This document shows, piece by piece, positions 1-9,042 of a DNA stretch of 64,000 nucleotides. Numbering within the stretch: the first letter of the stretch is position 1; every line of letters begins with the position of its first letter. The position numbers were made by a program, and so were the translations under genes. The stretch is from Wenjunlia tyrosinilytica. GTDB taxonomy: Bacteria > Actinomycetota > Actinomycetes > Streptomycetales > Streptomycetaceae. The stretch lies in assembly GCF_014646055.1 (NCBI RefSeq), contig NZ_BMMS01000010.1, positions 77,674-141,673 of the forward strand, read 5' to 3'. A model generated the notes under the pieces. The model searched no databases, was not told the DNA's origin, and was given only the letters and a program-made list of their open reading frames with translations.

Positions 1-1232
1 ACCCTGGACGGGTCAAGGGAGACCACCTTCATCGCATATCTGAACCCCAGCTTCTTGCGGGCCAGCGCGGCAGCCGCACGGATCCTGACCAGCCGGTCGG
101 TGTGGTCGAAGAGCAACTCGGCCGGGTCATAGCCGGGCTTGCGGTGGATCTCCACCAGCCGGGCGAAGTCCGGGGCCCGTTTGTCCTCCAGCCAGTAGTA
201 GTAGGTGAACCAGGCATCAGCGGCGGCCATGGCCACCAGCTCACCCGCCCGCGGATGGTCGATCCCGTAGTCCTTCTTGCCGGTGTCGCCGAGCACCTCG
301 GCAACCCCGTCGATGCCTCGCAAGAGCTCGCAGACCCTGGGCACATCGGCCGGGTCACGCACGTAGAGATGGGCGATCTGATGGTCCGCGACAGCGAAGG
401 CCCTTGACGTCCATGGATCCAGATACTCCATACCGCCCTGGGTGTGGACCTGGAGCAGACCGGCGCGCCGCAGCTCGCGGTTGATGTCCACCGGCCGGGA
501 GACGGGGGTGATCCCGTACTCGCTCAGGACCACGGCGCGGGCCCCCACACGGTGGGCATCGTCGAGCAGGGGCGCCAGGGTCCGGTCCAGTTCCCGGGCG
601 GCCCTCACCGCTGCGCGGCTGTGCGGACCATGGCGTTGAAGGTCGTAGTCCAGGTGCGGCAGGTAGACCAGGCAGAGATCCGGCCGGTGCCGGCGGAAGA
701 CATGGCGGGCGGCCTCCACGATCCACTGGGAGGAGGCGATACCGGCCGCCGGCCCCCAGAAGCGGAACAGCGGGAAGTCGCCCAGGCGGTTGGTCAGTTC
801 GTCGTGCAAAGAGGGCGGGAAGGTGTAGCAGTCGGGTTCCTTGCGTCCGTCGGCGTAGTAGATGGGCCGGGGTGTGACCGTCCAGTCGACGTCCGCGCCC
901 ATGGCATACCACCAGCAGATGTTCGCCACCGAGTAGCCGGGGCGCCGGCGGCGAGCGGTCTCCCAGATCTTCTCGCCGCCGACCAGCTGGTTGTGCTGGC
1001 GCCAGAGCAGCACTTCGCCGAGTTCACGGAAATACCAGCCATTGCCCACCACGCCGTGCACGGACGGAGGTTCCCCGGTGAGAAGGGTGGACTGCACGGA
1101 GCAGGTCACGGCGGGCAGCACCGTGTCCAGACGGGCTCCGAAGCCTTGGTCGCGCAGAGCCCGCAGGCGGGGCATATGGGGGAGCAGGCGGGGAGTGAGC
1201 CCCACCGCGTTCACCACCAGCAGTCGCCTCAT
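1..1232 (-). CDS. eboF: EboF-like type I phosphodiesterase/nucleotide pyrophosphatase (3' end outside window)
   Basis: Alkaline-phosphatase-superfamily hydrolase, the last visible gene of the ebo operon. The ATG at 1232 overlaps the EboE stop as ATGA. About 410 codons lie in the window and the C-terminus runs off the left edge. The N-terminus MRRLLVVNAVGLTPRLL is followed by PAVTCSVQSTLLTGE, where Thr43 sits where this family has its nucleophile. LVYLPHLDYDLQRHGP and DHQIAHLY supply candidate Asp/His metal ligands, and VLSEYGITPV stands where relatives often have SDHG. Ebo genes are linked in other bacteria to moving a metabolite precursor to the periplasm. The substrate here is unknown. No signal peptide is obvious. 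Confidence 0.8.
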   Translation of the reverse strand, partial: MRRLLVVNAVGLTPRLLPHMPRLRALRDQGFGARLDTVLPAVTCSVQSTLLTGEPPSVHGVVGNGWYFRELGEVLLWRQHNQLVGGEKIWETARRRRPGYSVANICWWYAMGADVDWTVTPRPIYYADGRKEPDCYTFPPSLHDELTNRLGDFPLFRFWGPAAGIASSQWIVEAARHVFRRHRPDLCLVYLPHLDYDLQRHGPHSRAAVRAARELDRTLAPLLDDAHRVGARAVVLSEYGITPVSRPVDINRELRRAGLLQVHTQGGMEYLDPWTSRAFAVADHQIAHLYVRDPADVPRVCELLRGIDGVAEVLGDTGKKDYGIDHPRAGELVAMAAADAWFTYYYWLEDKRAPDFARLVEIHRKPGYDPAELLFDHTDRLVRIRAAAALARKKLGFRYAMKVVSLDPSR

Positions 1233-2389
1233 GACAGGACCTCCTTCAGCCCGAGAGCGGTGATCGCGTCACGGGTCCAGGCGAGTTCGGCCGCGACTCC
1301 CTCGACCAGCCCCGCGCATCCGGGTGCCTCCGGCAGCACGGGCCAGGAGTAGGTCTCCACCTCGATGTGATCGGTGAGCGCGGCATCACCGCCGAGCAGG
1401 ACTCCCAGGGTCTTGAGCAACTCGGGCCTGGTGGCGCGCAGTCCCGGCGGGGGATCGGTGTGCAGCGGCACATGGAAGTGGACACGCCAGGGACCGTCCC
1501 CGGGCAGGGCCCCGGCCAGAGCCTCGGGCAAATCGTCGGTCCCCAGGACCGTGTCCGTGTGGCGTTCCCTGGTCTGGTGGAGGAAGCGGCGCTCGTCGAA
1601 ACGCTCCAGCGCGGCACGGGCCAACCGGTCGCGGGGATTGTCCAGTTGCAGGGCGCAGGACGCCTGCGTCTTCACGATGGGGAGCCCGGCGGCGTGCAGG
1701 CGTGCGCAGGCCGCGGTGGGATCCTCGAACCCGACCGCCAGATGGCAGGCGTCGAGACAGACACCGAGCCGGTCCCGGTCCACGGTGGACAGCAGGGTGG
1801 CGGCCTGGGTGGTGTTCTCGATCAGGCAGCCGGGCTCGGGTTCGAATCCCACCCGCACCGCTCGCCCGGTCCGTGTCTCCACGGCCGCCAGCCTCTGCGC
1901 CATGGAGTCGAGATGGCGCCGGGCACGATCGGCCCGTGCGGAAGACCAGGGCTCGCGCCAGGCCAGCGGCAGGGTCGACACGCTGCCGCGGTCGGCGCCT
2001 TCCGGGAGCAGCGCCGCCAGGACCCGGGCGCAGTCGAGTGTGTAGTGCAGCCGGTCGGGCTCGGTCCAGTCCGGCCGGTAGACCGCCTTCTTGACCGAGG
2101 GGGCATGGAATCCCGCGTAGGGGAAGGCATTGAGGGTCACCACCTCCAGACCCCGGCGGTCGAGTTGGCGGCGCAGCACGGCCAGGGACCCGGGGGCGGC
2201 GGCCAGTCGCGCCGCGACGGGGCGGGCCAGCCACAGCCCGAGGCCGAGCCGGTCCCAGCCCAGACGGCGGCGGATGGGCTCGGCGTAGTCGGCCAGTTGG
2301 GCCAGCACCCCGTCGAGGCTCTCGGCGGGATGCACATTGGTGCAGTAGGCGAGATGGACGGCGGAGCCGTCGCGGTGCCGGAAGCGCAC
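1229..2389 (-). CDS. eboE: EboE, xylose-isomerase-like TIM-barrel protein of the ebo operon
   Basis: Protein of 386 residues, GTG start at 2389, beginning MRFRHRDGSAVHLAYCTNVHP. VRVGFEPEPGCLIEN and VCLDACHLAVGFED carry the Glu and Asp/His residues typical of xylose-isomerase-like barrels, and VHFHVPLHTDPPPG is a further conserved His cluster of EboE proteins. The gene starts 6 bp after the EboB stop and ends in an ATGA overlap with the phosphodiesterase gene. EboE is required for metabolite traffic in cyanobacterial scytonemin producers, but its reaction is not known. I infer a sugar or cyclitol ligand because a sugar isomerase and an inositol-phosphate-synthase-like gene share the operon. 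Confidence 0.88.
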   Translation of the reverse strand: MRFRHRDGSAVHLAYCTNVHPAESLDGVLAQLADYAEPIRRRLGWDRLGLGLWLARPVAARLAAAPGSLAVLRRQLDRRGLEVVTLNAFPYAGFHAPSVKKAVYRPDWTEPDRLHYTLDCARVLAALLPEGADRGSVSTLPLAWREPWSSARADRARRHLDSMAQRLAAVETRTGRAVRVGFEPEPGCLIENTTQAATLLSTVDRDRLGVCLDACHLAVGFEDPTAACARLHAAGLPIVKTQASCALQLDNPRDRLARAALERFDERRFLHQTRERHTDTVLGTDDLPEALAGALPGDGPWRVHFHVPLHTDPPPGLRATRPELLKTLGVLLGGDAALTDHIEVETYSWPVLPEAPGCAGLVEGVAAELAWTRDAITALGLKEVLS

Positions 2390-2395
2390 GGCGTC

Positions 2396-3277
2396 CTACT
2401 CCGCGCCGCGGCGGATCGAGTTGCCGGCGAACTCCGCCTCGGGCGCGGCCCGCACGGCGATCCCTGTGTCGACCAGGGGGGTGTCGCCCAGTTCCAGTCG
2501 GCCGCTCTGCCCATAGAACTCGACGGGGTTCTGCCAGAACACCCGGTCCACATCCTGCGGGGAGAAGCCCGACCCGGTCATCGCGTCCGCGGTCCGGCGG
2601 GTGCTCAGCGGGTCGCTGCGGCCCCAGTCGGCGGCGGAGTCGACCAGGATGCGCGAGGTGCCGAACCCGGTGAGGATCCGCACCATCCTTTCGGCGCTCA
2701 TCTTGGTCTGCGGATAGATGGAGAAGCCCATCCAGCAGCCGCTGTCGGCCACCATGCCGACGGTCACCTCATTGAGGTGGTCCACCACCACGCGGCCCGG
2801 ATCGATCCCGGATTCCCGGATCACATCGAGGCTGCGCCGCGTGCCGGCGGCCTTGTCCCGGTGCGGGGTGTGCACCAGGACAGGCAGATCGTGCTCGATC
2901 GCCAGACGCAGTTGCCGGGCGAAGGCCTTGTCCTCCTCGGGCGTCATGGCGTCGTAGCCGATCTCGCCGACCGCCACCACGGTGTCCTTGACCAGGTAGC
3001 GGGGCAGGAGGTCGAGAACCCCGGCGAGGCGTGGGTCGTTCGCCTCCTTGGGGTTGAGGGCGATGGCGCAGTGGTGCTGGATCCCGAACTGCGAGGCGCG
3101 GTGCCGCTCCCAGCCCAGCAGCCCGTCGAAGTAGTCGACGAACGTACCGACGCCGGTACGGGGCTGGCCCAGCCAGAACGAGGGCTCCACCAGGGCCCGC
3201 ACCCCCGCGGCGGCCATGGCCTCGTAGTCGTCGGTGGTTCTGGAGGTCATATGGATGTGCGGGTCGAAGATGCGCAT
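2396..3277 (-). CDS. eboB: EboB, TatD-family metal-dependent hydrolase
   Basis: Protein of 293 residues starting MRIFDPHIHMTSRTTDDYEA, with the HIH metal-binding motif of amidohydrolase/TatD barrels at residues 7-9. Further ligands are GEIGYD, PVLVHTPHRD, VVVDHLNE and ILVDSAADWGRSDPL. The length and motif order fit the TatD-like protein EboB. The ATG at 3277 lies inside the end of eboA (31-bp overlap) and has GGAGG about 10 nt upstream. TatD proteins include nucleases, but the ebo branch is thought to act on an unidentified small substrate. The location is predicted cytoplasmic. Confidence 0.88.
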   Translation of the reverse strand: MRIFDPHIHMTSRTTDDYEAMAAAGVRALVEPSFWLGQPRTGVGTFVDYFDGLLGWERHRASQFGIQHHCAIALNPKEANDPRLAGVLDLLPRYLVKDTVVAVGEIGYDAMTPEEDKAFARQLRLAIEHDLPVLVHTPHRDKAAGTRRSLDVIRESGIDPGRVVVDHLNEVTVGMVADSGCWMGFSIYPQTKMSAERMVRILTGFGTSRILVDSAADWGRSDPLSTRRTADAMTGSGFSPQDVDRVFWQNPVEFYGQSGRLELGDTPLVDTGIAVRAAPEAEFAGNSIRRGAE

Positions 3278-3945
3278 CGCGCTGGTTCCTCCAAGAGCTC
3301 GGGGTGGGCCGCCCGGATGAGCGAGCGGACGTCGGGCGGCACCTCGCGGCCCGCGGCCAGCCGTTCATGGGCGTAGTCGGCGAGCATGCGGGTGAGTTCG
3401 GCGTCGGCGCGCTCGTCCAGGCCGCGGACATCGGCGAGCGGGATACCGGTGAACACGCACTTCAGTACCGCCTGCCGGTAGGCATGGGCGCCGAGATGCC
3501 GGGCCGCGTAGTCGCCGAGGGCGGCGGTGATCAGCCGCGGGTCGTGGGTTCTGAGGGCGTCCTCAACGATCGGCAGCGCCATGGCCCCCAGGTCCCTGTG
3601 CTCATCGAGCGGATGGAGCGCCCTCAGCACCCCGCGCCGCTCCGAGGCGTCACCTTGGCGGTAGAGCCGGGTCAGGGCGGCGGCCAACGTGGATCGGCTC
3701 CATGGCAGCCCGCTCAGGAGCAGGGTCCGGACCGCGTCATCGGTGGTCCATCCCCGCGCCCACCCATGCCCGGGCAATGGGTCACGTCCGCAGCACCGGC
3801 CCACCAGGGGGAACACCTCGTCCACGAGGGCAGGGTCCACGAGGGCAGAGTCCTCGAGGAGCCGGGGCGCTGTCCCGTCCAGCCAGTTCCGTGCCCGAGC
3901 CGGAAGCCGCCCGGCCAGCTCGGTGAGCAGAGGGCTCGCCGTCAA
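3247..3945 (-). CDS. eboA: EboA domain protein
   Basis: Protein of 232 residues, alpha-helical, rich in Leu/Ala/Arg, beginning MTASPLLTELAGRLPARARNWL. Recognised as EboA from TDDAVRTLLLSGLPWSR, DPRLITAALGDYAARHLG and VLKCVFTGIPLADV together with its place directly before eboB. The start is TTG at 3945, overlapping the upstream stop as TTGA, so it probably depends on coupled re-initiation. Its last 31 bp overlap the eboB start. EboA has no assigned catalytic activity. I infer a scaffold or carrier role only from operon conservation. Confidence 0.82.
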   Translation of the reverse strand: MTASPLLTELAGRLPARARNWLDGTAPRLLEDSALVDPALVDEVFPLVGRCCGRDPLPGHGWARGWTTDDAVRTLLLSGLPWSRSTLAAALTRLYRQGDASERRGVLRALHPLDEHRDLGAMALPIVEDALRTHDPRLITAALGDYAARHLGAHAYRQAVLKCVFTGIPLADVRGLDERADAELTRMLADYAHERLAAGREVPPDVRSLIRAAHPELLEEPARCASSTRTSI

Positions 3946-4829
3946 GGCGCCACCCCCTGCCGCACCGGCCCCGTGGTCGGACGGGCCCCGGTGAGCGGGG
4001 ACGGGGATGCCGCTCGGAGGAACTCCAGCGATCGGCGGGCCACTTCGGGCGCCGCATGGCTGTGGCGCGGCAGCTCGACCGAGACCAGGCCCTGGTAGCC
4101 GCAGTCCGCCAGCGCGGAGAGCACGGGCGGGAAGACGATCTCGCCCTCACCGAACTCCAGGTGCTCATGCACGCCCCGGCGCATGTCCTCGATCTGCACA
4201 TTCACCAGCCGGGGCGCCGCACGCCGGACGCAGGCGTCCACCGGCTGCTCTTCGAGGCAGCGGCAGTGCCCGATATCGAGGGTGAGCCCCAATCGCTCCG
4301 GGAATCCCAGGCGGCGGCTCAACTCGTCGTACCGGTCGAGGGTGTCCACGAACATCCCCGGTTCGGGCTCGAAGCCGAGCACCACCTCTCTTGTCTGCGC
4401 CTCCTCGATCACCTCGGCGCAGCCGCGGACCAGCCGCTCCCATGCCTCTTCCTCGGGCAGGCCCGCCGGGCAGGCGCCGCTCCAGAACGAGACCGCCTCC
4501 GCGTTGACCTCGGAGGCGATCCGGACCGCGCGCAGGAGAAGGTCGACACGGCGGTCGGCGCCATCGAGGGACAGCAGGGTCGGACGGTGCTTGCGCCAGG
4601 GGTCCAAGAGGTAGCGCCCGCCCGTTTCCACGACGGTGCCGAGGCCCAACTCCTCGAGCCGGTTCGACAGGTGGGACAGACGGCGCGGCAGCGCGGTGTC
4701 GTAGGGATCGAGGTGGCGCCGGTCGAGGGTGAGGCCCACGCCGTCGTAGCCCAGGCCTGCCACGACGGCCAGGGCATCCTCCAGGGAGTGGTCGCCGAAA
4801 CCATTGGTGCCGTAGCCGAAACGGATCAT
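3942..4829 (-). CDS. Sugar phosphate isomerase/epimerase (AP endonuclease family 2 TIM barrel)
   Basis: Protein of 295 residues beginning MIRFGYGTNGFGDHSLEDAL. Barrel metal-site motifs are visible: AVSFWSG, VVLGFEPEPGMFVD (Glu), LGLTLDIGHCRC (Asp/His), NVQIEDMRRGVHEHLEFGEG (His, Glu) and LVSVELPRHSH. The ATG at 4829 overlaps the EboC stop (ATGA) and the stop overlaps the TTG of eboA. It resembles EboE in fold but not in detail, so the operon carries two xylose-isomerase-like barrels. Likely role: isomerisation or epimerisation of a sugar or cyclitol made with the inositol-phosphate-synthase-like enzyme. The substrate is unknown. Confidence 0.85.
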   Translation of the reverse strand: MIRFGYGTNGFGDHSLEDALAVVAGLGYDGVGLTLDRRHLDPYDTALPRRLSHLSNRLEELGLGTVVETGGRYLLDPWRKHRPTLLSLDGADRRVDLLLRAVRIASEVNAEAVSFWSGACPAGLPEEEAWERLVRGCAEVIEEAQTREVVLGFEPEPGMFVDTLDRYDELSRRLGFPERLGLTLDIGHCRCLEEQPVDACVRRAAPRLVNVQIEDMRRGVHEHLEFGEGEIVFPPVLSALADCGYQGLVSVELPRHSHAAPEVARRSLEFLRAASPSPLTGARPTTGPVRQGVAP

Positions 4830-5719
4830 GTGGGTGAGACCTTTCTGCCCAGCCACCGGGCCAGGGGAAGTGCGGCCGCGATGGGCAGCGCGGCAGGCAC
4901 CGAGCCCGCCGCAGCGGTGAGCGCCGCCTGAAGCGGCATCAGGCCGTGAATGCCGGCGGCCACCGCTCGCCTCACCTGCGGGGCCGAAGGGCTGCGCACG
5001 GCGGTCCACTGGGCTCTGCCGCAACTGCCCGCGTAGACCGCGGAGAACAGGGCGCAGGCGGCTCGGTCCCGGCGGCGGGAGCCATGCCTTCCTGCCACGG
5101 CCGCGGTGGCGGTGGTGGCCATGGCGCTCATCACGAGCGCCGCCCCGGGCACCGACCGGGGAGCGCCGCTCACTTCGTACCGGCTCAGCCCGGTCACCGA
5201 GGCCGTGTGCAGGCCAACGACCGCGGCGGCCGCGAGGGCCCGGCCCGTCCCGCCCGGCCCGGCGCCGGCGAGCACATCGAGGGCACGGGCCACCGCCATG
5301 GCGGCAGGACCGGCGGCCGTCTGCTTGAGCGCCAGGTCGTACCCCCACACCACACCGGCCAGCGGCACGGCCACGACCAGCCCCCGGCGCCCCCTCGCGG
5401 CGACGGCCAGAGCGAGCCCGGCGAGCGTCAGCCCGGAGGCGATGGCCAGCGCCGCCGCCGGGGAGACCAGCCCCGAAGGGATGGGCCGCTCCGGCCGCTC
5501 CACCGCGTCCACCTCGCGGTCGGCAAGGTCGTTGAGCGCCATCCCCGCCCAGTACAGGCAGACCGAGGAGGCCGCCGTTCCCAGGGTGGCGGCGGTCAGG
5601 GGGCGGCCCCCGGCGGCAGCCCCGGCCAGGACATCGCCGGGCACGGTCAGGGCGGCGGGCGCCCTGACCAGGCGGGCGATGTCAGGGAGCCGGGGGAGGG
5701 GCTGTTGCCGTGGGCTCAT
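4826..5719 (-). CDS. eboC: EboC, UbiA-family membrane prenyltransferase
   Basis: Integral membrane protein of 297 residues. ALNDLADREVDAVERPERPIP holds the first Asp-rich motif NDxxDxxxD of UbiA prenyltransferases, which binds prenyl diphosphate through Mg2+. The second motif region is weaker (VVWGYDLALKQT), as is common in EboC. Hydrophobic segments run through most of the chain. The ATG at 5719 overlaps the preceding stop (ATGA). UbiA enzymes attach an isoprenoid chain to an aromatic or sugar-like acceptor. Next to an inositol-phosphate-synthase-like enzyme and sugar isomerases, a prenylated cyclitol or sugar is a reasonable but untested product. Confidence 0.88.
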   Translation of the reverse strand: MSPRQQPLPRLPDIARLVRAPAALTVPGDVLAGAAAGGRPLTAATLGTAASSVCLYWAGMALNDLADREVDAVERPERPIPSGLVSPAAALAIASGLTLAGLALAVAARGRRGLVVAVPLAGVVWGYDLALKQTAAGPAAMAVARALDVLAGAGPGGTGRALAAAAVVGLHTASVTGLSRYEVSGAPRSVPGAALVMSAMATTATAAVAGRHGSRRRDRAACALFSAVYAGSCGRAQWTAVRSPSAPQVRRAVAAGIHGLMPLQAALTAAAGSVPAALPIAAALPLARWLGRKVSPT

Positions 5720-6864
5720 TGCGTCACCCGTGGCCCATTCGCCCACCGCACAAGCTGCGCATACTGCTGTTCGAGCGCATGTTCTCCGCCGGCCACCGGG
5801 TCCTTGAAGAAGAACGCCAGCTCGGGCACCGGACCATGGACCCCGCGACTGTGGGCCAGCGCCATCAACCGGGCCAGGTCCAGCACGAGGGGCGCGGCGA
5901 GCGAGGAGTCGCAGCCCTGCCAGGTGAACTGCATGGTCATCCGCGTCCCCAGGAACCCCTCGAAGGTGATGTGGTCCCACGCGGTCTTCCATTCGCCCAG
6001 GTCGGGGACATGGTGGATATGCACCCCGCCCTCCACCGGCTCGCCCAGGACTTCCGCGAGGACCCTGGCCTTTGAATCGACCTTGCCGGCGGCTCGCGCG
6101 GGATCGGCGAGGGCGGCGCCGTCCCCGCCGCCGAGGAGGTTTGTCCCCGACCAACTGCGCACCCTCAGCGCCCGGCGGGCGAACATCGGCGCGAGCACCG
6201 ACTTCACCAGGGTCTCGCCGGTCTTGCCGTCGCTTCCCGCGCAGGGCACGCCCCGCTCATGGGCGAGCTCCACCAGCGCGGGCAGGCGGGCTCCGCACGA
6301 GGGGGTGAAGTCCACATACGGGCAGCCGGCGAGGAAGGCCGCCATGGCATAGACGGAGCTGACCGGGAGTACGGGCTCGCCGGAGGCGAGGGCTCGACGC
6401 AGCGCCCGCACAGTGGAGTGCGCGGGATGGGCGGTGGGCGGCGGCTCGGTGGAGGAGACATTGACCACGACGACGCGCTCGAGATTCCCGCGCCGCTTGA
6501 ACTCCTCCAGATCGGCCACCACGGTCGCCACGGCCGCCGCTTGGTCCTCGGCCTCGGCCGTCACCCCCGGGCGGATCTCGGCGTCGGCCCGGACCAGGTC
6601 CTCGCGCACCAGATCGGCGAGCCCATGCGGTATGACGCCCGCTTCCATGAGCTGCTCGGCCCGCTTGGGCAGCGGGGTGCGCGCCACATCATGGCCGCCG
6701 AAGACCAGTTCGCCGAGGCCGGGCAGTGCCACCTCGCGAAAGTCGTCGTGCTCGCTCACACAGCCCGTCGGGGGAGCGGCCCCCGTTCCCACGGCCGCCG
6801 CGCCCACCACCGCTGTGGTCGCCACCGAGCCGCGCGCCCCCACCAGCCAGATTCCGGTGCGCAT
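5716..6864 (-). CDS. Inositol-3-phosphate synthase-like protein (divergent)
   Basis: Protein of 382 residues from ATG 6864 (AGGAGG 11 nt upstream). An ATG at 6903 would add 13 residues. The N-terminus GIWLVGARGSVATTAVVGAA is the Rossmann NAD-binding motif of myo-inositol-1-phosphate synthases. SSTEPPPTAH, YVDFTPSCGARLPALVELA and CAGSDGKTGETLVKSVLAPMF follow the family's order, but the last segment differs from the common GDDxKSQxGxT, so the substrate may not be glucose 6-phosphate. GTNLLGGGDG replaces the usual LNxGGNxD. It precedes eboC with an ATGA overlap. I infer that it fills the place of EboD (dehydroquinate-synthase-like) found in other ebo clusters. Confidence 0.8.
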   Translation of the reverse strand: MRTGIWLVGARGSVATTAVVGAAAVGTGAAPPTGCVSEHDDFREVALPGLGELVFGGHDVARTPLPKRAEQLMEAGVIPHGLADLVREDLVRADAEIRPGVTAEAEDQAAAVATVVADLEEFKRRGNLERVVVVNVSSTEPPPTAHPAHSTVRALRRALASGEPVLPVSSVYAMAAFLAGCPYVDFTPSCGARLPALVELAHERGVPCAGSDGKTGETLVKSVLAPMFARRALRVRSWSGTNLLGGGDGAALADPARAAGKVDSKARVLAEVLGEPVEGGVHIHHVPDLGEWKTAWDHITFEGFLGTRMTMQFTWQGCDSSLAAPLVLDLARLMALAHSRGVHGPVPELAFFFKDPVAGGEHALEQQYAQLVRWANGPRVTQ

Positions 6865-6908
6865 CGCCGCGCCTGCCTCCTGTGCGCCCAGGCTCGCGTC
6901 CATGGCCG

Positions 6909-7712
6909 TCAACTGATGCCGTCCGGGTAGGGGACCGACTGGAAGTCCGCGTCCAGGCGCCGCGCTCGCCGCGGAAGCCAACTGGTGGCGAGCTCCAGTA
7001 CCACTTTGCGTGGCAGCGGCGGGCTGACTGTCTGGCTATTGGGCTTCGCCACCGAGGCCAGCGCCCAGGCGAAGCCGTTCAGCGGTGCGAATGCCTCCCA
7101 GCGGTGCCGGTCTATGCCGAGGAGCATCATCGCCCGCATATAGGCGTGCCAGGTGTGGTAGCCGACAGGGGGCATGCCCGGCAGTGAGTTCATGGTGTGG
7201 ACGGGCGATCGGACGCTCTCCCGGCGGGGGTCGTAGAGCACCCCTTGGCCGAAGAAGGCGAACGCGGCCACAAGCCGTGGGTCATGGTGCCGGTACAGCT
7301 GGTCGAAGACGCCCAGTTGCATCCGTGAGACCACGGTCAGCGGTCCCTTGATCGGGGCCATGAACGAGGCATAGTTGCCCGGATAGCCCGGGGACTTGCT
7401 CATCGTGAGCCAGGTGGTGCGGAACTCCCGCTCGATGCTTCCGCCCACATGCCTGCCGATGGCCTTGTAGGCATCGAGCAGCTCGGGAGAGACCTTGTAG
7501 AGGGCGGCTTCGTCCAGTTGGTACCAGACCTCATTGGCCCGGCGATCACCCAGCATGCCCGGAACATCGGGCAGTTCGGGATCCTCATGCTCTCCATGAC
7601 GCCCGTGGTCCGCCGCCCAAGCCGGTGCGGCACCCACCGCCGCCAGCCCCGCGAGCACCGCCGCCGAGGCGGAGGCTCTCAGCACCTGCCGCCGATCGAG
7701 TTGGTTCGACAT
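6909..7712 (-). CDS. Tat-exported protein of unknown function at the head of the ebo operon
   Basis: Protein of 267 residues. The N-terminus MSNQLDRRQVLRASASAAV has a twin-arginine motif (DRRQVLR), then a hydrophobic stretch and an Ala-rich cleavage region ending in APAWAADHG, so folded export is predicted. The mature part is rich in Tyr, Trp, Met and His (VGYHTWHAYMRAMMLLGID) and I do not recognise a family. It starts 44 bp before the inositol-phosphate-synthase-like gene and is probably co-transcribed. A periplasmic partner at the head of an ebo operon would suit the proposed role of Ebo proteins in moving a precursor out of the cytoplasm. Its leader carries a four-tract G-rich repeat at the ribosome-binding site. 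Confidence 0.72.
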   Translation of the reverse strand: MSNQLDRRQVLRASASAAVLAGLAAVGAAPAWAADHGRHGEHEDPELPDVPGMLGDRRANEVWYQLDEAALYKVSPELLDAYKAIGRHVGGSIEREFRTTWLTMSKSPGYPGNYASFMAPIKGPLTVVSRMQLGVFDQLYRHHDPRLVAAFAFFGQGVLYDPRRESVRSPVHTMNSLPGMPPVGYHTWHAYMRAMMLLGIDRHRWEAFAPLNGFAWALASVAKPNSQTVSPPLPRKVVLELATSWLPRRARRLDADFQSVPYPDGIS

Positions 7713-7839: not shown

Positions 7840-9042
7840 TCAGCCCCTCCCCAGCGCCTCCTCGACGTCGTACCGGTGGATCCAGGAGACGTCGTCCACC
7901 AGCGAGGCCAGCCCGGCGCCGTCCGGCGTTTCCGGACCCGGTCGGCGCAGGCGCAGCGATCCGCCTCCCCGTGCACCCAGTTGCACCCGTGTCGTATGGG
8001 GGCGGCGTATCGCTTCGTACCTGGCCAAGCCCTCGGCTGTCCCGCTCGGCTCGCGAAGCGCCGTCCTTGTACCCGTACCCGCCCTCGTCGCCGTGTCGAG
8101 GCAGTGGGCGAGGGCGGCGGCGTCCTCGATGGCCTGGCCGGCCCCCTGCCCGTGATGGGGGAGCATCGGGTGGGCGGCGTCTCCGAGCAGCGTGACGCGG
8201 CCACTGCCCCAGCGTTCGAGCGGCTCCCTGTCGTACAGGGCCCAGCGCCTGGTGTCCTCCACGGCGCTGACGATCTCCTTGACCGCCGGGTCCCAGTCGG
8301 CGAACGCCGCGGCCAGATCGCCCGCGTCGCCGGGAGCGCTCCATGACTCCAGCGTCCACTCACCGCCCGGGACGACCGCCACGAAGGCGAGGAACGCGCC
8401 CGCGCGGACGGGAGCGCACAGCAGGCGCGAGCTCGGGCCGACCCAGACGAGCACCCTGTCACGCGGCAGATCCGGCACCCGATGCGCGGGTACCAGGCCG
8501 CGGAAGGCACTGGTGGAGGAGAACACCGGTGACTCCGGCCCGGCGACGGCCTGCCGCACGACGGAGTGCACCCCGTCGGCACCCACCAGCACATCGGCCC
8601 GCGCCGTACCTCCGTCGGCGAACTCCAGCCGGACCCCGTCGCCCTCGTCCGCGAACCCGACGAGTGCGCGGCGCACATGCACACTTTCCACCGGGACCTG
8701 ATCGGCGAGAGCCCGGTGCAGGTCCGCGCGGTGGACCGTCCAGTAGGGGGCGCCGAACGCCTCCTCCCACCCGTCGCCCATCGGCTGCTCTATGAGGCCG
8801 CGGCCGCTGCTCCCGTCTCGGACCTCGAGCGCGGCCGGGCGGACAGCGGTCCTCCGGAGGCCGTCCGCCAACCCCCAGCGCGCGAGCAATCGGCTCCCGT
8901 TGGGAGCGAGGTGGAGCCCCGCGCCCACCTCGCCCAACCGCCGCGCCTGTTCGTACACATCCACGCGGAAGCCGCGTCGGATCAGCGCCACCGCTGCGGC
9001 GAGCCCTCCGATCCCGGCCCCCACGACCGCCACCCGCACCAT
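7840..9042 (-). CDS. FAD-dependent monooxygenase (aromatic hydroxylase type)
   Basis: Flavoprotein of 400 residues, ATG at 9042. Three class A flavin monooxygenase fingerprints are present in order: GxGxxG in VAVVGAGIGGLAAAVAL (residues 4-20), the DG motif in VLVGADGVHSVVRQAV, and the GD motif in VTLLGDAAHPMLPHHGQGAG. The family hydroxylates phenolic or similar substrates with NAD(P)H and O2, for example salicylate-hydroxylase-like enzymes. The substrate cannot be read from sequence. It ends 127 bp before the Tat gene on the same strand, so membership in the ebo operon is possible but not shown. The C-terminus ends in a short Arg/Gly-rich tail. Confidence 0.9.
   Translation of the reverse strand: MVRVAVVGAGIGGLAAAVALIRRGFRVDVYEQARRLGEVGAGLHLAPNGSRLLARWGLADGLRRTAVRPAALEVRDGSSGRGLIEQPMGDGWEEAFGAPYWTVHRADLHRALADQVPVESVHVRRALVGFADEGDGVRLEFADGGTARADVLVGADGVHSVVRQAVAGPESPVFSSTSAFRGLVPAHRVPDLPRDRVLVWVGPSSRLLCAPVRAGAFLAFVAVVPGGEWTLESWSAPGDAGDLAAAFADWDPAVKEIVSAVEDTRRWALYDREPLERWGSGRVTLLGDAAHPMLPHHGQGAGQAIEDAAALAHCLDTATRAGTGTRTALREPSGTAEGLARYEAIRRPHTTRVQLGARGGGSLRLRRPGPETPDGAGLASLVDDVSWIHRYDVEEALGRG

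Follow-up and report, generated by a model that had tools for sequence, protein, structure and literature searches.

The first 7,712 positions of a 64,000-nucleotide stretch of the Wenjunlia tyrosinilytica genome (contig NZ_BMMS01000010.1, positions 77,674 to 141,673; the window) carry, on the minus strand, what is probably an actinobacterial version of the ebo gene cluster, one where EboD has been replaced by an unrelated NAD-dependent cyclase of the myo-inositol phosphate synthase (MIPS) type, hereafter INO, and whose product would be a prenylated cyclitol-type compound. The gene content, the mutual exclusion of INO and EboD, the deep split between the two cluster types, the MIPS residues of INO and the motifs common to the EboB, EboC and EboF proteins of both types are all observed, and a route that runs from a cyclitol through EboC-dependent prenylation to export would fit them. 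We regard the INO-type cluster as a real and apparently old variant, undescribed in the open-licence PMC literature that was searched for INO in the place of EboD, and the mechanism proposed for it below as plausible.

The order of transcription is Tat-type protein (twin-arginine translocation), INO, EboC-like UbiA prenyltransferase, second TIM barrel, EboA, EboB, EboE, EboF, so that the ebo genes, INO, the Tat-type protein and the TIM barrel that the initial annotation had grouped are indeed all present on this strand. Like the ABCDEF-type operon, for which EboD is described as a sugar-phosphate cyclase with sedoheptulose 7-phosphate as its proposed substrate (Yurchenko et al. 2016, PMC5133447), the locus brings homologues of EboA, EboB, EboC, EboE and EboF together in one operon. 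The TIM-barrel protein EboE (1229..2389) and EboA (3247..3945, with a TTG start) pass the respective models (NF035939 equivalog, 434.6 bits against a cut-off of 250; NF035938 EboA domain, 168.5 against 50), EboA falling below the full-length subfamily model NF035937 (78.6 bits, cut-off 320), and the key motifs of EboB, EboC and EboF are common to both operons. Unlike the ABCDEF type, the present operon has INO ahead of eboC and a second TIM barrel that separates eboC from eboA (gene order INO-C-TIM-A-B-E-F), its core proteins belong to a separate lineage, and EboD is found neither at the locus nor, by domain and EboD-profile search, in the rest of the 8.49-Mb genome (172 contigs). The genome's sole match to the dehydroquinate-synthase family PF01761, on contig C3, reaches 155 bits on the EboD profile, which is the level of AroB, against 594-655 bits for true EboD.

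A search for EboE matched 19 of 396 genomes from the phylum and 80 of 296 from the class, the latter with 92 EboE places. Of the 60 actinobacterial neighbourhoods examined, 50 are ebo clusters; the other 10 contain an EboE-like gene on its own and are excluded from the counts. The 80 class genomes are covered by neighbourhood in 48 cases and by the position of INO in 31, one (G537) being left out, and second EboE places in G409, G468, G500 and G507 lie outside the neighbourhoods examined. Presence was scored with custom profiles (INO 300, EboD 150 and second TIM barrel 150 bits), and the EboA of three TIM-EboA fusions was entered manually. For comparison we used 80 named non-actinobacterial loci from Bacteroidota, Cyanobacteria, Chloroflexota, Acidobacteriota and others, which are the best 80 of 583 in a scan led by EboD-type EboE and are therefore biased towards the EboD type.

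Among the 50 actinobacterial clusters, 46 contain INO, one contains EboD and lacks INO, and three contain neither; the non-actinobacterial loci hold EboD in 73 cases and INO in none, and the two enzymes never occur together (0/130 loci). The proposal of the initial annotation that INO takes EboD's place in actinobacterial ebo clusters is thus borne out by the rarity of EboD (1/50) as well as by the conservation of INO beside eboC, where the INO stop and a possible eboC start codon overlap by four bases in 39 of 44 scorable cases; a possible 4-base overlap likewise joins eboC and the TIM-barrel gene in 41 of 43. Six of the seven named loci without a scored EboD are a cluster with an EboD fragment truncated by the contig end (L102), two short contigs bearing few ebo genes (L071, 3.6 kb, and L124, 6.9 kb), two clusters whose EboD is located elsewhere in the genome (L054 and L094), and a Lewinella cluster (L125) that lacks EboD and has an INO of a second kind. 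At the level of whole genomes, the EboD profile detected no EboD in 44 INO-type genomes, one of which (G318) is 82% complete, the best score being 183 bits against the 594-655 of true EboD, and the INO profile found nothing at ebo level (520-637 bits) in the genomes behind 30 of the 80 named loci, where the best match scored 289 bits, or in 301 Chloroflexota genomes, with a single match at 310 bits. All 31 further genomes hold an ebo-level INO, in 28 of them on the same contig and 2.6-4.3 kb from EboE; in two, INO and EboE are split by contig ends, with the remaining cluster on the partner contig. A chance neighbourhood of INO and ebo genes is ruled out by the 50 clusters and these 31 genomes.

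Two observations from the survey stand by themselves. One genome (G128) has a second ebo cluster without INO (L028), with an FAD/amine-oxidase-like gene upstream of eboC, while its other cluster (L029) has INO. The ten solitary EboE-like genes (L155, L168, L174-L181; 284-316 bits on the EboE profile) have no other scored ebo genes in the stretch examined and come from several actinobacterial families, G522 and G633 additionally carrying a full or partial cluster.

The split between the two types extends to the core proteins. A joined EboB+EboF+EboE tree of 76 rows (28 of the 80 named loci used, L045 and L154 left out), which is a quick tree with support from the Shimodaira-Hasegawa-like approximate likelihood ratio test (SH-aLRT) only and includes 38 compositionally odd rows and a single long one (L043), separates 45 INO and two 'neither' rows from 27 EboD and two 'neither' rows with an SH-aLRT of 100. 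The sole EboD-type actinobacterium (L031 in genome G381) groups with Thermomicrobiota, Chloroflexota and Rhodothermota rows, has neither EboA nor the second TIM barrel, and has no INO in its genome at an E-value of 1e-20; its cluster was probably acquired whole. In a tree of INO itself, 23 ebo copies form one clade against 18 others, again with an SH-aLRT of 100.

Distribution and phylogeny bear on a reading that we consider quite improbable, namely that INO merely feeds the general myo-inositol pool (phosphatidylinositol, mycothiol) and stands in the ebo operon for regulation, with no direct role in the ebo product. Ordinary MIPS residues would suit such a role, as would G549 (L186, L187), the last of the 31 further genomes, where only a fragment of INO is left in the ebo cluster while a different contig carries an intact ebo-level copy unaccompanied by other ebo genes. 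Against it speak the exclusion of INO and EboD across the 130 loci, the adjacency and possible overlap of INO and eboC (39/44), the separate clade of the ebo copies, and the location of all 17 ebo-level INO matches of the 396 genomes inside ebo clusters, a count that, the same 17 forming the profile rows, only shows that no extra one surfaced.

INO (5716..6864, starting at the ATG at 6864 or possibly at an in-frame ATG at 6903) has both domains of the MIPS family well over their cut-offs (PF07994, 4.5e-49 and 168.1 bits against 25; PF01658, 1.3e-31 and 109.4 bits against 27), and its top PDB match is Archaeoglobus fulgidus Ino1 (1u1i; E 3.9e-69, 236.9 bits). The initial annotation had called the protein divergent, which is accurate only relative to the actinobacterial mycothiol-type INO1 (39 bits on TIGR03450, cut-off 638) and does not extend to the archaeal enzyme, with which INO has full-length homology and catalytic residues in common. 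Eight lysines, aspartates and an asparagine that we take to be the catalytic residues of MIPS do not vary among the 46 ebo-linked INO proteins or among 18 other copies, N255, K278 and K367 of this set being altered in some aligned PDB rows; INO does not look degenerate, and the idea that it is a dead enzyme finds no support. The catalytic lysines described for a fungal MIPS are Lys391, Lys395 and Lys508 (PMC11348189), and it is by inference that we map them onto INO. What sets INO apart from the archaeal-type enzyme is its place in the ebo operon and a signature in the nucleotide-binding loop, where R11 and S13 are found in 46/46 ebo copies; among the 18 non-ebo copies R11 occurs in none (7/18 are gapped at the site) and S13 in one.

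The loop signature also belongs to the case for a different substrate. The W. tyrosinilytica genome holds a typical, separate mycothiol-type INO1 on contig C8, and a dedicated ebo INO would therefore have to differ in isomer or in substrate, or else serve channelling. It is conceivable, though we think it rather unlikely, that ebo INO acts on another sugar phosphate, either sedoheptulose 7-phosphate or a hexose phosphate that it would close to a five-membered ring, and that its product is the cyclitol of EboD rather than inositol. A second plain inositol-phosphate synthase would look redundant beside INO1, and the family includes an enzyme with a different product, to judge from its name (five-membered-cyclitol-phosphate synthase, 6k96); that enzyme is nevertheless a far weaker match to INO than A. 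fulgidus Ino1 (3e-12 and 49.6 bits, against 236.9), and all eight MIPS residues are kept.

The other conserved enzymes of the cluster seem to change little between the two types. The UbiA protein (4826..5719) was annotated as EboC; it is an EboC homologue, albeit from a separate subfamily: it scores 138.8 bits on the EboC equivalog NF035940 (cut-off 250) and passes the SCO3242-family model NF045897 (358.4 bits, cut-off 260). Its NDxxDxxxD motif and the two arginines that follow are present in 44/44 INO-type and 68/69 EboD-type rows, the exception being gapped, and against the PDB it gives weak local matches only. EboB (2396..3277; PF01026, 1.3e-14), a TatD-like metal-dependent hydrolase, keeps H7, H9, E105, H136, H139, H167 and D217 in all 46 INO-type and 69 EboD-type rows. 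EboF, a phosphodiesterase-superfamily protein (PF01663, 1.5e-62), occupies positions 1..1232 and is truncated by the window edge; the complete gene (L026:7818-9206, 463 codons) ends beyond that edge, near G000:C10:77515. EboB and EboF each exceed the cut-off in one operon, a single profile per protein detects both ebo types, and with the key residues of EboB, EboC and EboF unchanged between types the rest of the machinery looks the same. EboF of both types reads SEYG opposite the ADHG of an aligned phosphonoacetate hydrolase and has an invariant Q201 in place of that enzyme's histidine; the usual two-metal site seems to be altered across the EboF family.

The second TIM barrel (3942..4829; PF01261, 2.1e-38) is xylose-isomerase-like with a sugar 3-epimerase fold, and its structural model (predicted local distance difference test score, pLDDT, 93.4) has L-xylulose-5-phosphate 3-epimerase UlaE as its best PDB match. 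Sugar-phosphate and ketose 3-epimerases were closest in the fold search, which did not narrow the substrate further, and the profile matches include IolI and IolE. The protein accompanies INO in 43 of the 46 clusters and, at the 150-bit threshold, is absent from all 80 named non-actinobacterial loci. In three clusters (L043, L149, L169) it is fused to EboA, which joins two neighbours of the present operon in the manner of the actinobacterial TIM-EboA hybrids mentioned, as data not shown, in PMC5133447.

A second kind of INO scores 315-325 bits, is found in 7 of the 396 genomes and has a TIM homologue nearby in 7/7 loci. It speaks for the INO-type reading of the cluster that, where the only ebo cluster of a genome lacks both INO and EboD, as in G279 and G419, the genome carries a second-kind INO elsewhere, with a TIM homologue adjoining or about 3 kb away, an arrangement seen in 2/2 of them and 0/52 INO-type genomes (Fisher p 0.0007). 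In one of the seven loci, L126 from an actinobacterium, and in a Lewinella locus (L183, INO at 289 bits) the gene order between and beside INO and TIM is identical: INO, an unmatched gene, a methyltransferase, a GFO/IDH/MocA dehydrogenase, a second unmatched gene, YcaO, TIM, a family-4 glycosyltransferase and a PIG-L deacetylase. The L126 dehydrogenase has inositol 2-dehydrogenase as its best NCBIfam match, below the cut-off, and the unmatched gene before YcaO in L183 is weakly metallo-β-lactamase-like. The position of INO and TIM beside enzymes that may act on inositol lends some weight to a TIM substrate resembling inositol. The set may form a pathway akin to that of mycothiol, based on inositol and including a YcaO enzyme, on which one literature search found nothing. 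At L127, L129-L132 and L182 INO and TIM alone were scored, and L128 differs in having both beside tRNA-modification genes.

We propose a pathway whose steps are given here in order of falling confidence. INO would convert glucose 6-phosphate into inositol phosphate by cyclization; the second TIM barrel may then alter the stereochemistry of the cyclitol made by INO, or of its keto form; EboC might attach a prenyl group to the cyclitol; and EboB, EboE and EboF could process the prenylated product, which, following the proposal made for Nostoc (PMC6282210), may serve as a membrane-anchored carrier or lipid that moves metabolites out of the cytoplasm.

The overlaps described earlier at 1229-1232, 3942-3945, 4826-4829 and 5716-5719 are located as claimed, and an overlap of 31 bases between eboA and eboB (3247-3277) had been missed; such overlaps indicate translational coupling and nothing beyond, so that the fixed stoichiometry read from them is not supported. 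The Tat-type protein (6909..7712, minus strand) is a rare accessory: a twin-arginine start can be seen in its sequence, yet both Tat models remain below cut-off (13.7 bits), and homologues in only 2 of the 296 class genomes (the source genome and G352), in each case immediately upstream of INO, rule it out as a core part of the operon. The counterpart (L030:15241-16023) has a nonribosomal peptide synthetase (NRPS) adenylation domain farther upstream. The upstream neighbour in the window, an FAD monooxygenase (7840..9042, minus strand; PF01494, 1.1e-25), lies outside the conserved operon, its best matches at other ebo loci being 156 bits (L056) and 110 bits (L146) against 917 for itself.

Earlier work touches on this variant at several points. 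EboD-less clusters have been described in Leeuwenhoekiella and two Planctomycetes, as has an eboG variant, in PMC5133447, the main text of which does not contain the word 'inositol'; nor does the main text of PMC9235831, which figures Saccharomonospora ebo neighbourhoods. In Streptomyces coelicolor a UbiA-type transferase, SCO3242, is numbered next to a myo-inositol phosphate synthase, SCO3243, as eboC and INO are neighbours here; the difference is that the pair is filed under a lipopeptide cluster, that of the calcium-dependent antibiotic (CDA). The other ebo genes are presumably SCO3237-SCO3241, and SCO3245 would be the monooxygenase. That the genes of the window belong to a lipopeptide pathway is nonetheless very improbable. 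The NCBIfam model of the UbiA protein bears the SCO3242 name, one transcriptome study lists SCO3242 (putative transferase) and SCO3243 under CDA, unchanged like other CDA genes (PMC3610822), and L030 has its upstream adenylation domain; that domain, however, found no counterpart in the window and 9 kb around its left edge (one query only) and, among 45 ebo-related loci, was found solely in L030, its source, while INO-type clusters span genomes of 26 genus codes.

Several points weigh against the main reading, a replacement of EboD by INO with a prenylated cyclitol as the product. We are aware of no activity for the ebo enzymes of Actinobacteria; that a cyclitol is prenylated is an argument from analogy; and the mycothiol-type INO1 of the genome should already provide inositol phosphate. 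The EboC-type enzymes that have been tested, Ubi-297 and relatives from Flavobacteria and Algoriphagus, favour the farnesylation of quinoline derivatives such as 8-hydroxyquinoline-2-carboxylic acid (8-HQA) (PMC9235831), a preference that does not point to cyclitols. The S. coelicolor block, listed with CDA, is reported to behave like other CDA genes in one transcriptome (PMC3610822), a point of little weight either way. The second TIM barrel is missing from 3 of the 46 INO clusters (L144, L153, L154) and is therefore not always required in place, and the argument from G279 and G419 concerns two genomes, the first of which suggested it, and draws on scoring that in part took only four candidates per genome. 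For one non-actinobacterial cluster, the last of the seven named loci without a scored EboD (L069), the searches of its metagenome-assembled genome showed no EboD and no INO. Finally, the INO and EboD counts should not be read as so many separate events: one swap would suffice for the core tree, and the counts perhaps reflect one old event plus inheritance.

A broader and more speculative picture may be drawn, which we consider possible rather than probable: two unrelated NAD-dependent sugar-phosphate cyclases would be interchangeable at the head of a single conserved membrane pathway, the ebo product would be a prenylated cyclitol in all phyla and, in Actinobacteria, an undescribed prenyl-inositol (phosphate) lipid made with the help of a dedicated inositol epimerase, and the S. 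coelicolor block filed under CDA would be an ebo pathway. Clusters of this family are distributed over many phyla and extend to algal plastids (PMC5133447), and Nostoc requires them to make scytonemin (PMC6282210); the INO swap hints that the core of the ebo product is a sugar-derived ring. The exchange of EboD for an enzyme from a different family that likewise forms a cyclitol from a sugar phosphate provides independent support for the cyclitol hypothesis. The INO-type version furthermore allows the first step of the pathway to be assayed on a known substrate and in Streptomyces, a tractable host, and the question of what the ebo genes make thereby becomes testable.

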